The notes under the pieces: generated by a model | What the model was told of the DNA's origin: nothing | Databases searched by the model: none | What the model saw: only the letters and a program-made list of their open reading frames with translations | Shown: positions 14,547-46,587 of the stretch, piece by piece | How positions within the stretch are numbered: the stretch's first letter is position 1 | Layout of the letters: each line of letters starts with the position of its first letter | Position numbers and translations under genes: made by a program | Origin: Sulfobacillus thermosulfidooxidans | Lineage (GTDB): Bacteria > Bacillota > Sulfobacillia > Sulfobacillales > Sulfobacillaceae | Length of the DNA: 64,000 bases | NCBI RefSeq assembly: GCF_001280565.1 | Contig: NZ_LGRO01000001.1 | Span: forward strand, 2,604,001-2,668,000 | Direction: 5' to 3'

Positions 14547-15005
14547 GCTTACCCTCTTTTACTTTTACTGATGAGATCATAAATATTGCCTGTTTAAACT
14601 TCTCGCAAAACGGTTTTTATTCATCATAAAACTGTGATTTATTATTGGCCGTAATTGCCAAAAAGTCCATAAATCTGCCGAGAAATTTGCCAAATTTGCC
14701 AAAGAATCGATCGCGTAATGTTCTATTGTTCGGCAAATTAGCTGTATCTCATGTTCGACAACGCTTGATCTTTGCCGAAATATGATAAATATGAGAAAAA
14801 ATTTGCCGGAAATTATTTCGAGAAATGTCGACGGGTTTGTCCGTAATTGTCTATGAGACAAATCTGAGACACTAGAACATGCAGATTATGATATTATCGC
14901 ATCAGCTGGCCGGCTAAAATTTTTCTCCTGAATTGCTTCAATAATCTTGCGCAATTTTGCAAAATTCCTCTTGCCATATCATTCAAGGACCTTCATAGTA
15001 ATACA
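14547..15005. other. AT-rich intergenic region with TTTGCC repeats
   Basis: No convincing gene. The hexamer TTTGCC or its complement appears at least five times between about 14685 and 14815, with further near copies, and TTGTCT-ATG-AGACAA forms a dyad at 14847-14861. The region probably holds the thiC promoter and perhaps regulator sites. A leftward 94-codon frame here has no ribosome site and is not called. Confidence 0.5.
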
Positions 15006-15092
15006 TAACGGGAGCTCGGCTAACCGGGCTGAGAGGGTGGATTGGCCACCGACCGTCAACCTGATCTGGGTAATGCCAGCGGAGGGAACAGA
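15006..15092 (+). ncRNA. TPP riboswitch (THI element)
   Basis: The conserved core is readable: GGGAGCTCGG, then GGGCTGAGAGGG, ACCGTCAACCTGATCTGGG and TAATGCCAGCGGAGGGA, in the right order and spacing for a thiamine pyrophosphate aptamer. It lies about 100 bases before thiC and should repress it when thiamine pyrophosphate is abundant. No strong terminator is seen between it and thiC, so control of translation is likely. Confidence 0.95.
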
Positions 15093-15150
15093 TTTTTGAT
15101 CCTTTTAGCCCATCCATTCATAAACTTTCCCTACTGCCTGGCATATGTGA

Positions 15151-43020: not shown

Positions 43021-43144
43021 TTCCAGCGATTTTAAGCAGTTTTCGGCACTGGCACCCCATTTCCCATAAATTTTTTACGTTTTACGGCGATCTCCATTGA
43101 CATACATGCGAAGACTTGCATATAGTTAGATTGCAAATGAAATA

Positions 43145-43310
43145 AAGTCCTCGTTAGGCGAGGCGTCTACATCAACATAGGCCACTGCTCCGACCCGTCC
43201 AAAGACGCTAAGGAGTAGAACAGAGGTTGCCGGATTAAGGCTTCTTCCAAGGTGGCTGAATCTGATTAAGGTTCTCACGTGATGTAGTGCCGAAGCTCCA
43301 CCAGGGGGAT
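43145..43310 (+). ncRNA. M-box (ykoK) magnesium riboswitch aptamer
   Basis: The conserved M-box core is readable: CGTTAGGCGAGGC at the 5' end, CACTGCTCCGACC, CCGTCCAAAGACGCTAAGGAG and AACAG in the middle, and TGATGTAGTGCCGAAGCTC at the 3' end. P2 is CTACATCA (43167-43174) with TGATGTAG (43280-43287); P1 is likely GTCCTC (43148-43153) with GGGGAT (43305-43310). M-box RNAs fold on Mg2+ and turn off Mg2+ transporter genes. Here the first downstream gene is an NRAMP-like transporter. Confidence 0.9.
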
Positions 43311-43331
43311 GACGGGTATTTTAACGACCAC

Positions 43332-43361
43332 GTCCTCTTGCTGGGCTGCAAGAGGACAATT
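43332..43361 (+). terminator. M-box-linked regulatory terminator
   Basis: A 9-bp perfect stem (43332-43340 with 43349-43357) followed by AATTTT, 22 bases after the aptamer. Its right arm GAGGAC can also pair with the aptamer 5' strand GTCCTC (43148-43153), which repeats the terminator left arm, giving a simple antitermination switch. Confidence 0.75.
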
Positions 43362-43395
43362 TTATGTGGCGCAACGGAAAAGGAGGGTGCATTGG

Positions 43396-43482
43396 GTGAG
43401 TACAGACCCAGGAGGCCATAGTAGTTTCTTGCGTTCACGAAAATCACACACTGTTCTGTGCTCTTCCGAGGGCTGTCCTTAG
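43396..43482 (+). CDS. Candidate 28-residue leader peptide
   Basis: A short ORF starting at GTG 43396 with a very strong ribosome site, AAAAGGAGG, nine bases upstream. It ends at TAG 43480-43482 and the peptide ends Gly-Cys-Pro. It lies after the M-box terminator and before the transporter gene. Its last codons form the left arm (43462-43472) of one of two competing hairpins at the transporter ribosome site. A nine-codon alternative starts at TTG 43392 in another frame. The role as a regulatory leader is inferred from position; no homologue was searched. Confidence 0.55.
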   Translation: MSTDPGGHSSFLRSRKSHTVLCSSEGCP

Positions 43483-43519
43483 CTGTTGCTATGACCCCCT
43501 CGGAAGATGCCGAGGGGGG
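43462..43519 (+). promoter_or_regulatory. Mutually exclusive hairpins at the NRAMP ribosome site
   Basis: Stem A pairs 43462-43472 with 43497-43507 (11 bp). Stem B pairs 43495-43503 with 43510-43518 (9 bp, GC-rich, six-base loop) and includes most of the GAGGGGGG ribosome site at 43512-43519. The two share 43497-43503, so A leaves the ribosome site open and B hides it. There is no T run after B, so it is a translation switch and not a terminator. Confidence 0.7.
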
Positions 43520-43523
43520 ATAT

Positions 43524-44873
43524 ATGATGTCGAAAAAGAATGTGTCTGCAGCCACCCGGGTCTTCGATGATGCACGAATTCGTGCAGAGGATCAGGCACG
43601 TGTGGCGGCTTTGCGTCAATCTCCGAGTTGGACAAAACGGCTTCTCCTATTATTAACGCTAGTTGGCCCCGGTATTCTTGTCATGATTGCAGACAATGAT
43701 GCCGGTGGTGTAATTACCTATGCCCAAACTGGGGCAACCTATGGGATTGGGTTTTTCATCCCGGCCCTAGTTATTGGGGGCTTGATTGCTTATGTCGTCC
43801 AAGAAATGACGGTACGACTGGGCGCGGTGACTCACCGTGGCCATGCTGAAATGATTTGGGGACGGTATGGAGCGTTTTGGGGTTGGTTTTCCCTGGTGGA
43901 TTTAGTGATCGCGAATGTGTTGACGTTGATTACCGAATTCATCGGGATTACCGTAGGTATGTCCGTTTTTGGTGTGCCGCCGGTTTTCAGTGCGTTAGGT
44001 GGACTCATTTTAGATGCGGCTATTTTGTTGGTCTTGCGTTACCGGACATGGGAACGGGTGTCTTTGTGGATTGCGGCAGGGAATTTAATCTTTATTCCCT
44101 TAGCTTTAATGGCACATCCTGATTGGAACAAGGTCGTGGGAGCTTTTAGTCATTGGCAAGTTCCCGGTGGTTTTACCGCAGCCTTTTTGTTTGTGGTGTT
44201 GGCCAATTTTGGGACGACGATTGCACCTTGGATGTTATTTTTCCAACAGTCGTCTGTCGTTGATAAAGGATTGACCGTTCAAGATATCCGCCATGGTCAG
44301 TTTGATACGGCACTGGGAGCCTTTGCTATGGTGGTGGTGGCCGTGGCGCTGGTAGTCTTAACCGGGACGATTGCTTATGGTCACCCCGGAGCAGCCAATT
44401 ACAACATTCAGCAAATTATGCAATTGATTGGGCAGCATCTAGGCCGTGTTGGGCAAGATCTCTTTGCTTTGGGGTTGGTCGAGGCGGGAATAATTGCAGC
44501 CATTGCCTTGACGGCTAGCACATCGTGGGCTATGGGCGAAGCATTTCATTGGCCGAAGAGCATTAACCTGCCAGTTCGTGAGGCATGGCGGTTTTATGTC
44601 CCGGGGCTATTAAGTGCGACCATTGCTGCAGCGATTGTTTTGATACCGAATGCGCCATTGGGATTTTTAAACTTGACTGTTCAAGTCGTTGCCTCGATCT
44701 TTATGCCAGCTGCCCTGTTGTTTCTCTTGTTGCTCCTTAATGACCGGGAAATTATGGGTGATTATGTCAATCGCAAGTGGCAAAATCTTTCGGCCTACGC
44801 CATTGTTGGATTGCTCGTTATTCTCAATGGTCTTTATGGGGTATCAGTCGTTTTCCCACATCTATTTCAATGA
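43524..44873 (+). CDS. NRAMP-like metal transporter, probable Mg2+ branch
   Basis: A 449-residue transporter with about 11 helices and an SLC11/NRAMP core. The helix 1 metal motif DPGN reads D-A-G-G (residues 59-62) and the helix 6 M-P-H reads A-P-W (234-236), so the Met that selects soft transition metals is replaced by Ala. Mg2+-transporting NRAMP relatives lack this Met and are known under M-box control, which matches the riboswitch upstream. Start is ATG 43524 or 43527, behind GAGGGGGG. A 58-residue membrane protein follows. The N-terminal 40 residues are charged and cytoplasmic. Confidence 0.88.
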   Translation: MMSKKNVSAATRVFDDARIRAEDQARVAALRQSPSWTKRLLLLLTLVGPGILVMIADNDAGGVITYAQTGATYGIGFFIPALVIGGLIAYVVQEMTVRLGAVTHRGHAEMIWGRYGAFWGWFSLVDLVIANVLTLITEFIGITVGMSVFGVPPVFSALGGLILDAAILLVLRYRTWERVSLWIAAGNLIFIPLALMAHPDWNKVVGAFSHWQVPGGFTAAFLFVVLANFGTTIAPWMLFFQQSSVVDKGLTVQDIRHGQFDTALGAFAMVVVAVALVVLTGTIAYGHPGAANYNIQQIMQLIGQHLGRVGQDLFALGLVEAGIIAAIALTASTSWAMGEAFHWPKSINLPVREAWRFYVPGLLSATIAAAIVLIPNAPLGFLNLTVQVVASIFMPAALLFLLLLLNDREIMGDYVNRKWQNLSAYAIVGLLVILNGLYGVSVVFPHLFQ

Positions 44874-45179: not shown

Positions 45180-45224
45180 ATGGAGCGAATGTCCGCCGTT
45201 ATGATGCCTGGTCGAGAGAAATAA
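45180..45224 (+). CDS. Very short ORF overlapping a terminator
   Basis: A 14-codon ORF (ATG 45180, TAA 45222-45224) with a good ribosome site, GGGAGG, eight bases upstream. Its last codons run through the left arm of the terminator at 45207-45237, so a ribosome at its stop codon would block the hairpin. It may be a leader peptide, a small membrane-independent peptide or chance. Confidence 0.35.
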   Translation: MERMSAVMMPGREK

Positions 45225-45348: not shown

Positions 45349-45363
45349 TATTATGGAGATTTT

Positions 45364-46587
45364 ATGGAACTTCAACGATCAGCGATAAGCAATGGAATGC
45401 CAAAAACAACATGGCAATGGCTAAAGCTTTTGGGGCCAGGAATTATTGTAATGCTGGCGGATACCGATGCGGGCAGTGTAGTGACCGCAGCCCAATCGGG
45501 AGCGCAGTTTGGAGCGTCTTTGCTCATTCCCGATATTTTGCTGATTGGGGTCTTGTACCTTGTTCAAGAAATGACAGTACGGTTAGGATTGGTTACGGGA
45601 CAGGGACATGGAGAATTAATCGAAAAATATTTTGGCCGCAAATGGGCCAGTTTATCGGTTTTGACGTTATTTTTGAGCGCGGTGGGCGCCTTAGTCACTG
45701 AGTACGCGGGCATTGCGACTGTTGGTCAACTTTTAGGTGCCAGTAAATTCTGGTTTGTTCCTTTGGTAGCCTTAGCATTGATTAGTGCGGCTTTCTTGGG
45801 TAAATACCGGCGAGCAGAACGTTTTGGCATTATTTTAGGTTTATTAGAATTGGCTTTTATTCCTGCTGCATTTTTCGGATTATTCAAGGGCGTCGGCAAC
45901 GTTAAGAGTATTTGGATTTTACCCTTTGGTCATGAAGATTTTGCCTGGATGGTTGCGGCCAACGTAGGCGCTGTCGTGATGCCATGGATGATTTTCTTTC
46001 AGCAGCAAGCGGTATCTGATAGTGGTTTGACCCCTGAGCAGTTAAAAATCGCCCGGCGAGATACATTGCTTGGGGCGGTACTCACCCAAACCGTGATGAT
46101 TGCGGTGATGTTGACCGCAGCAGAGGCATTTCCCCACCATCATACGTTAACCTCAATCGCCTCTCTGGCGCAAACCCTGGTGCCTTTATTAGGTCACAGT
46201 GCGATTATCATCTTTGGGGCGGGACTTTTCGGGGCCAGTACGGTAGCCGCCCTGGTGGTCTCGTTGGCAGGAGCATGGGGAATGGCGGAAGTTTTTGGCT
46301 GGAAACATAGTCTTAATAGTGATTTTAAAGAGACACCTCAGTTTCATATTATTTATGCCGTCTCGCACGTGATTGCGGTCATATTTGTCTTGGTCGCCAT
46401 TCACTTTGTGTCACTAAGCATCGATGTAGAAATTATGAATGCCATGTTATTGCCGATCGTCTTGGGATTTTTGATTGCCTTGGAATACCGGGCATTGCCG
46501 CACCACTGGAAAATGAGTCATCGCCGCCGGGTACTTGTCATTATCACCAGTATTGTTACGATATTGCTGGGGTTATTAACGCTCTAG
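45364..46587 (+). CDS. NRAMP-like metal transporter, transition-metal-type
   Basis: A 407-residue transporter, paralogous to the 43524 gene, with about 11 helices. The helix 1 motif is D-A-G-S (residues 35-38) and the helix 6 motif M-P-W (206-208) keeps the Met that in canonical NRAMP proteins ligates Mn2+ or Fe2+. The substrate is therefore likely a transition metal, unlike the neighbour. GGAGA lies upstream of the ATG at 45364; a longer frame to 45328 begins inside the Fur-like box. It has its own promoter. The His of the usual MPH is Trp, so it is not a standard MntH. Confidence 0.87.
   Translation: MELQRSAISNGMPKTTWQWLKLLGPGIIVMLADTDAGSVVTAAQSGAQFGASLLIPDILLIGVLYLVQEMTVRLGLVTGQGHGELIEKYFGRKWASLSVLTLFLSAVGALVTEYAGIATVGQLLGASKFWFVPLVALALISAAFLGKYRRAERFGIILGLLELAFIPAAFFGLFKGVGNVKSIWILPFGHEDFAWMVAANVGAVVMPWMIFFQQQAVSDSGLTPEQLKIARRDTLLGAVLTQTVMIAVMLTAAEAFPHHHTLTSIASLAQTLVPLLGHSAIIIFGAGLFGASTVAALVVSLAGAWGMAEVFGWKHSLNSDFKETPQFHIIYAVSHVIAVIFVLVAIHFVSLSIDVEIMNAMLLPIVLGFLIALEYRALPHHWKMSHRRRVLVIITSIVTILLGLLTL

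Follow-up and report, generated by a model that had tools for sequence, protein, structure and literature searches.

A conserved leader peptide between an M-box riboswitch and an NRMT-type transporter gene in Sulfobacillus: a candidate second, ribosome-based sensor of Mg2+

Sensing of Mg2+ by ribosome drop-off has been documented in enterobacteria for two leader peptides, MgtL and MgtQ. In E. coli, ribosomes drop off at the EPDP stretch of MgtL when Mg2+ is low, which turns mgtA on, and clear dependence on EttA requires at minimum a DPEE motif (both according to PMC11282234). In Salmonella mgtQ-mgtB, mutations revealed that helices 1:2 and 3:4 together form the alternative to helix 2:3. There, translation is aborted at the acidic codons D2 and E5; this frees the mgtB Shine-Dalgarno (SD) sequence, and the uORF promotes mgtB translation (PMC8092293). 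A different kind of Mg2+ control, the M-box (ykoK) riboswitch, is associated with mgtE, corA, mgtA and NrmT genes. In Clostridium, an M-box lies upstream of the NrmT gene, and a term search of the NrmT paper returned no mention of an upstream ORF (PMC4072509). The nearest described case to the one reported here is the pe20 M-box of M. tuberculosis. Its highly conserved uORF, Rv1805A, has a conserved N-terminus with an invariant Pro7; it was proposed to be a regulatory peptide, its role being called unclear by the authors (PMC12810186).

The locus under study lies within a 64,000-nucleotide stretch of the Sulfobacillus thermosulfidooxidans genome (hereafter, the window), and all of its features are on the + strand. 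A sigma-70-like promoter of the M-box transcript (43097..43126; TTGACA-18-TATAGT, 11/12) is followed by an M-box Mg2+ riboswitch aptamer (43143..43314; RF00380, 136 bits, E=1.7e-30) and by an intrinsic terminator (43332..43357), which consists of a 10-bp stem and the tail AATTTTAT. Both parts that define an M-box, the RF00380 aptamer and the expression platform, are thus present. (A TPP riboswitch, scoring 58.9 bits, occurs elsewhere in the window, at 14998-15105.) Behind the terminator, just as the original prediction had it, lies a 28-codon ORF (43396..43482; MSTDPGGHSSFLRSRKSHTVLCSSEGCP) with a GTG start at 43396 and a TAG stop at 43480-43482. Its SD, AAAAGGAGG (43378..43386), is separated from the GTG by 9 nt and is strong in all relatives as well. 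Codons 4-7 (43405..43416) encode Asp-Pro-Gly-Gly, the proposed site of translational abort or pausing.

The gene downstream of the leader (43527..44873; Pfam PF01566) codes for an NRAMP-family transporter. An upstream ATG at 43524 is possible; position 43527 is the more likely start, because near relatives do not have the upstream ATG. By far the nearest relative of known structure is the protein of entries 7qia, 7qic, 7qji and 7qjj (E=3e-57), all MntH chains being far behind. We take 7qia to be the published EleNRMT. The motif of Mn/Fe-type NRAMP proteins is DPGN; in our transporter it is replaced by DNDAGG, the NDAGG part of which is shared with 7qia in the alignment. Mn-type NCBIfam models score below their cut-off. 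Judging from the nearest solved relative, the motif and the association with the M-box, the transporter is of the NRMT (Mg2+) kind.

The genome falls within the Sulfobacillus group, S. thermotolerans Kr1 and S. benefaciens being among its named relatives. To see how the leader is distributed, we surveyed 34 genomes of the window's family. All 23 M-boxes in these genomes stand upstream of the orthologous NRMT gene, and each of the 23 has an SD and a leader ORF 65-99 nt downstream of the aptamer. With five additional loci (G029, G006, G009, G010 and G020), the set of orthologs with readable upstream DNA comprises 28 members, every one of which has a leader of 24-48 codons beginning with M-x-x-D-P. 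The leader ORF is therefore far beyond chance. At one of the five loci (G029) the contig is too short to include the M-box position. At the other four an M-box is absent even at E<=1, and the leader (MSSDPGGHK... or VDGDPSGQQ...) stands close behind a promoter-like sequence. Since these four M-box-less orthologs have kept the leader, it represents an independent module.

Conservation within the leader is strongly uneven. D4 and P5 are invariant in 28/28 leaders, and their codons vary (GAC/GAT and CCT/CCA/CCC/CCG, respectively). Among genus representatives, the ratio of synonymous to non-synonymous differing codons is 94:20 at codons 4-7 and 25:570 at codons 10-20, the second figure being somewhat inflated as codons beyond the conserved start were compared without alignment gaps. 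Only about eight residues are conserved, and the remainder is free in both sequence and length. According to these codon comparisons, protein-level selection acts on the first leader residues only. Taken with the ORF itself and its SD, the codon-level conservation supports translation of the leader. A strict leader pattern matches at most once per family genome, the matches being the NRMT leaders, and the reversed control pattern gave 0 matches. No leader was found at those NRAMP paralogs whose upstream DNA was read. Six loose class-level DPG matches (starting with MSTDPG, MSRDPG, MSIDPG or MTNDPG) were opened individually and none proved to be a transporter leader: five begin ordinary long ORFs and the sixth is a 72-codon ORF with no transporter nearby.

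The original prediction also singled out two alternative stems around the end of the leader, and both are there. Stem A pairs 43462-43472 with 43497-43507, and stem B pairs 43495-43503 with 43510-43518, covering the transporter SD (GAGGGGGG, 43512-43519). The prediction had missed a third helix, in which the SD/start region of the leader (segment 1, 43380..43406) pairs with the leader 3' end (segment 2, 43455..43480). Segment 3 (43495..43507) can pair with either segment 2, as stem A or helix 2:3, or segment 4 (43510..43519), as stem B or helix 3:4. Plain MAFFT and RNAalifold applied to the leader misaligned the helices and returned little covariation; for this reason we turned to duplex energies of own versus cross-genus partners. 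Among 11 genus representatives, a segment pairs 5-6 kcal/mol more strongly with the partner segment of its own genome than with that of another genus (p=5e-5 per helix). Throughout the orthologs, helices 1:2, 2:3 and 3:4 have mean z-scores of -2.0, -2.4 and -3.5, respectively, against mononucleotide shuffles. The three helices coevolve and are mutually exclusive alternatives. The idea of a second, translation-coupled control layer below the M-box is supported, and stems A and B are alternative, conserved and coevolving.

We then calculated how ribosomes masking different parts of the leader affect the transporter SD at the 28 loci. The mean energy required to open this SD is 9.7 kcal/mol without a ribosome, 6.3 kcal/mol with initiating or early ribosomes over segment 1, and 11.8 kcal/mol with a ribosome on segment 2. 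The last value agrees with the earlier expectation that stem B is favored once a ribosome has reached the 3' portion of the leader. The SD is easier to open with an early ribosome than with a ribosome on segment 2 in 24/28 loci; when the early ribosome is compared with one at the very last codon, the ranking is mixed (16/28). The outcome is sensitive to the assumed footprint: the SD opens only if segment 1 is covered by initiating or early ribosomes, and with a narrow footprint on codon 5 only it remains closed in most loci. The position of the stop relative to segment 2 varies among orthologs, and the distance from the leader stop to the transporter start is 30-56 nt in the family.

We consider the leader to be a regulatory peptide that would read Mg2+ through the ribosome itself, in the manner of enterobacterial MgtL and MgtQ, and put the probability of this reading at roughly 0.6. 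The proposal is based on the D4-P5 register, the kind of target gene and the helix logic, all of which are shared with the MgtL/MgtQ systems. The first codons, M-x-x-Asp-Pro-Gly-Gly, would be hard to translate. At low Mg2+, the M-box would let transcription through and ribosomes would abort or pause at these early codons. They would then occupy segment 1 and never segment 2, so that segment 3 is taken up by helix 2:3, helix 3:4 is prevented and the transporter SD is left free (ON). With sufficient Mg2+, ribosomes would translate the leader as far as the stop and block segment 2, leaving helix 3:4 to close over the SD (OFF). If the leader were not translated, helices 1:2 and 3:4 would form together, giving a mostly OFF state. 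Upon removal of the leader start, the two-stem model, which lacks helix 1:2, predicts the transporter to be ON and the three-helix model predicts it to be largely OFF. We infer by analogy that D-P would cause ribosomes to drop off or pause in these bacteria, with Mg2+ as the signal.

Like MgtL of E. coli and Salmonella, the leader is short, precedes an Mg2+ importer gene and is predicted to switch it ON by early abort; direct comparison with E. coli MgtL (17 aa, MEPDPTP...) reveals the same D4-P5 register as in the family consensus MxxDP. However, MgtL has 17 residues with E2/P3/D4/P5, acts through a Rho-dependent terminator and has no M-box, whereas here the core is DPGG and the SD is sequestered. 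With mgtQ-mgtB our locus shares the strong SD of the uORF, presumably destabilizing acidic codons at the N-terminus and the choice between 1:2 plus 3:4 and 2:3, helix 3:4 hiding the transporter SD. It differs in that MgtQ has 8 residues and is intergenic in a PhoP-controlled operon (mgtCBRU of Salmonella), while the peptide here has 28 residues and is encoded downstream of the terminator of an M-box, in a different phylum. As in other M-box systems, a full RF00380 aptamer and an intrinsic terminator precede the NRMT gene, but our locus has, in addition, a leader-peptide attenuator behind the terminator, and orthologs without an M-box have retained it. The pe20 locus likewise has uORFs after the M-box, one of them with a conserved N-terminus. 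In that case, however, the M-box targets the SD of the uORF and termination is Rho-dependent, and the peptide was called mycobacteria-specific and given no role in drop-off.

An acidic/Pro motif within the first residues (D4-P5 in 28/28) and alternative mRNA structures dependent on ribosome progress (helices 1:2, 2:3 and 3:4) are both present, as in MgtL/MgtQ. The two acidic residues characteristic of those leaders are not: the window leader has a single one in codons 2-8, in line with the family core DPGG. As DPEE is the E. coli minimum, true drop-off on DPGG is uncertain, and this single acidic residue is the weakest point of the proposed mechanism. We therefore regard the leader as a variant rather than a member of the MgtL/MgtQ kind, the second acidic residue being absent and drop-off only predicted.

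Acidic uORFs are also found behind M-boxes outside the family, where they recur at Mg2+ transporter genes. The uORFs were chosen by a peptide-blind rule and dereplicated, and chance SD-ORFs from the same loci served as controls. An acidic residue within codons 2-5 is present in 34/38 phylum and 15/17 class uORFs versus 16/130 controls (Fisher test, 5e-19 and 3e-10, respectively). D/E is most frequent at codons 2 and 4 (50% and 55%), and Pro at codon 5 (42%). The combination [DE]4-P5 occurs in 21/80 starts and in 0/130 controls, ten of the 21 being from the window's family, so that not all of the 21 are independent. In total, 66/124 class and phylum M-box loci have an SD-uORF and 59/124 an acidic one, while leaders of SAM (0/29) and TPP (0/25) riboswitches have no SD-uORF. 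The gap between riboswitch and gene measures 130 nt or more in 97/124 of the class and phylum M-box loci, 7/29 SAM and 2/25 TPP loci; 32/97 of the long M-box gaps are without an SD-uORF by the rule used.

Within the class, the uORFs that follow M-boxes and precede NRMT genes begin with VSADPGGC, VSPDPGDS, VEADPGGP, MRMDPSVG or VAADDHSRP; MDPGDSSQ precedes an Mg2+ P-type ATPase gene and VNGDPEPAP an ABC-permease-like gene. In the phylum sample, uORFs such as MDADPGPQ, MDPDPGSS, MDADPDD, METDPGRS, MDDPEAD, MDDPDAD, MDHPSRT and MSADPEPPPD precede genes of MgtE, CorA, P-type ATPase and ABC permease type (gene types were read from motifs or N-termini unless assigned by Pfam/NCBIfam). Many of these phylum relatives have two or more acidic residues (MDADP, MDPDP, MDADPDD). 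Alicyclobacillus and its relatives have MDSPSSS, MDIGPSM and MDDGPSG, and Ferroacidibacillus has MESGPSI; an M-box was detected in 5/5 contigs scanned from the Alicyclobacillus group. Helix support is weaker outside the family (mean shuffle z-scores of -2.2, -1.3 and -1.6 for the class/phylum loci). The own-versus-permuted test on these loci was set aside, because it is confounded by differences in G+C content. NRMT genes of Acidithiobacillus, Acidiphilium and archaea have no acidic uORF by the SD criterion used.

A further group of NRMT leaders, MRSEPDSS, comes from metagenome-assembled genomes (MAGs) not labeled as Bacillota (one record is SZUA-79). Among the 11 loci (L248, L255-L258, L262, L263, L265, L266, L269 and L274), the codons for S, E and P differ synonymously. 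Their leaders mostly stand behind a TTGACA-type promoter, and the scanned loci have no M-box. A complement of the AACAGCTTTAAC / GTTAAAGCTGTT type links the leader with the region before the gene SD.

Several other explanations were weighed against Mg2+ reading by the ribosome. One retains the three-helix attenuator and lets D-P-G-G report something other than Mg2+, such as EF-P or ABC-F capacity, general translation speed or the supply of prolyl-tRNA, with the M-box alone sensing Mg2+. B. subtilis ribosomes lacking EF-P do stall at Asp-Pro motifs (PMC11381351), and, judged by the E. coli rule (PMC11282234), one acidic residue alone would be a weak trigger of drop-off. Yet such leaders recur at all main classes of Mg2+ importers, and none follows the SAM and TPP riboswitches examined. 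Moreover, the leader stays with the Mg2+-type NRAMP gene when the M-box is absent, while the paralogs read upstream do without it. We regard a signal other than Mg2+ as unlikely. Simple translational coupling or reinitiation, with the leader itself sensing nothing, is considerably less probable. Leader ribosomes would disrupt helix 3:4 or reinitiate 30-56 nt further on; the short stop-to-start distance fits this, and at some loci (G021, G006, G009 and G010) the SD is opened by a ribosome that has arrived at the last codon. In most of the window's genus, however, a ribosome at the leader end closes the SD, and coupling leaves both the D-P constraint and the coevolving helix 2:3 unexplained.

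About as improbable is that the product of the ORF is a small protein with a function of its own, perhaps a partner of the transporter, and that the ORF overlaps the RNA switch by chance. Residues 4-8 are conserved at the protein level, and the conserved mycobacterial M-box uORF has been proposed as a regulatory peptide (PMC12810186); but only about eight residues are conserved in leaders of 24-48 codons, with the 25 synonymous to 570 non-synonymous differences at codons 10-20. Least probable of all, and very doubtful, is the timing device put forward in the original prediction. Slow release at the C-terminal Pro-stop, as in TnaC, would hold the ribosome on stem A, and the timing of termination would set the transporter level. 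In the window, a ribosome near the stop does mask segment 2 and favor stem B (17.7 versus 11.6 kcal/mol). The Gly-Cys-Pro-stop ending is nevertheless limited to six species within the genus, all closely related, which share the C-terminal SSEGCP. In two further congeneric species and in every other genus the leader ends in RA, SRG, RR..., GL, SG or MR, and stop positions differ in other genera. Comparison across relatives had been suggested as a check of this scheme: the ORF and its codon-level constraint are retained, but the stop is not fixed relative to stem A. Since the conserved residues are N-terminal, the fixed element of the leader is, from its sequence, M-x-x-D-P and not the Pro-stop.

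Returning to a leader that reads Mg2+ through the ribosome, we see about an even chance that Bacillota M-boxes are regularly dual sensors, in which aptamer and terminator are combined with an MgtL-like leader at all major classes of Mg2+ importers. In this same reading, the peptide module would also work alone, as in the Sulfobacillaceae-like genomes without an M-box and in the MRSEPDSS leaders of the MAG NRMT genes. If so, ribosome-based Mg2+ sensing would be widespread in bacteria, a general principle rather than an enterobacterial specialty, and the great length of M-box leaders past the terminator would be explained. A reporter fused to an M-box gene at its start codon may then measure two sensors at once, and the M-box-less orthologs offer a ready natural experiment. 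Among the open-access papers covered by our search, we found no description of leaders of this type behind Bacillota M-boxes; the arrangement is apparently previously unreported, though priority is not certain.

Two additional observations concern neighboring or related genes. An M-box and an acidic uORF precede an ABC-permease-like gene at L110 (G216), L121 (G173), L158 (G322) and L095 (G074), the uORFs being MDADPGPQ, MDADPEPQ, MDDGEG and VNGDPEPAP, respectively. BPD_transp_1 was detected in the G216 protein, and this gene type is a candidate for an unrecognized Mg2+ importer. In the window itself, a second SD-led mini-ORF, MERMSAVMMPGREK (45180-45224), extends into the hairpin of a strong terminator that closely precedes a second NRAMP gene (45361-46587). 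G018 has the terminator as well, but its mini-ORF reads MDSEYPPL; the mini-ORF and terminator together represent a possible attenuator.
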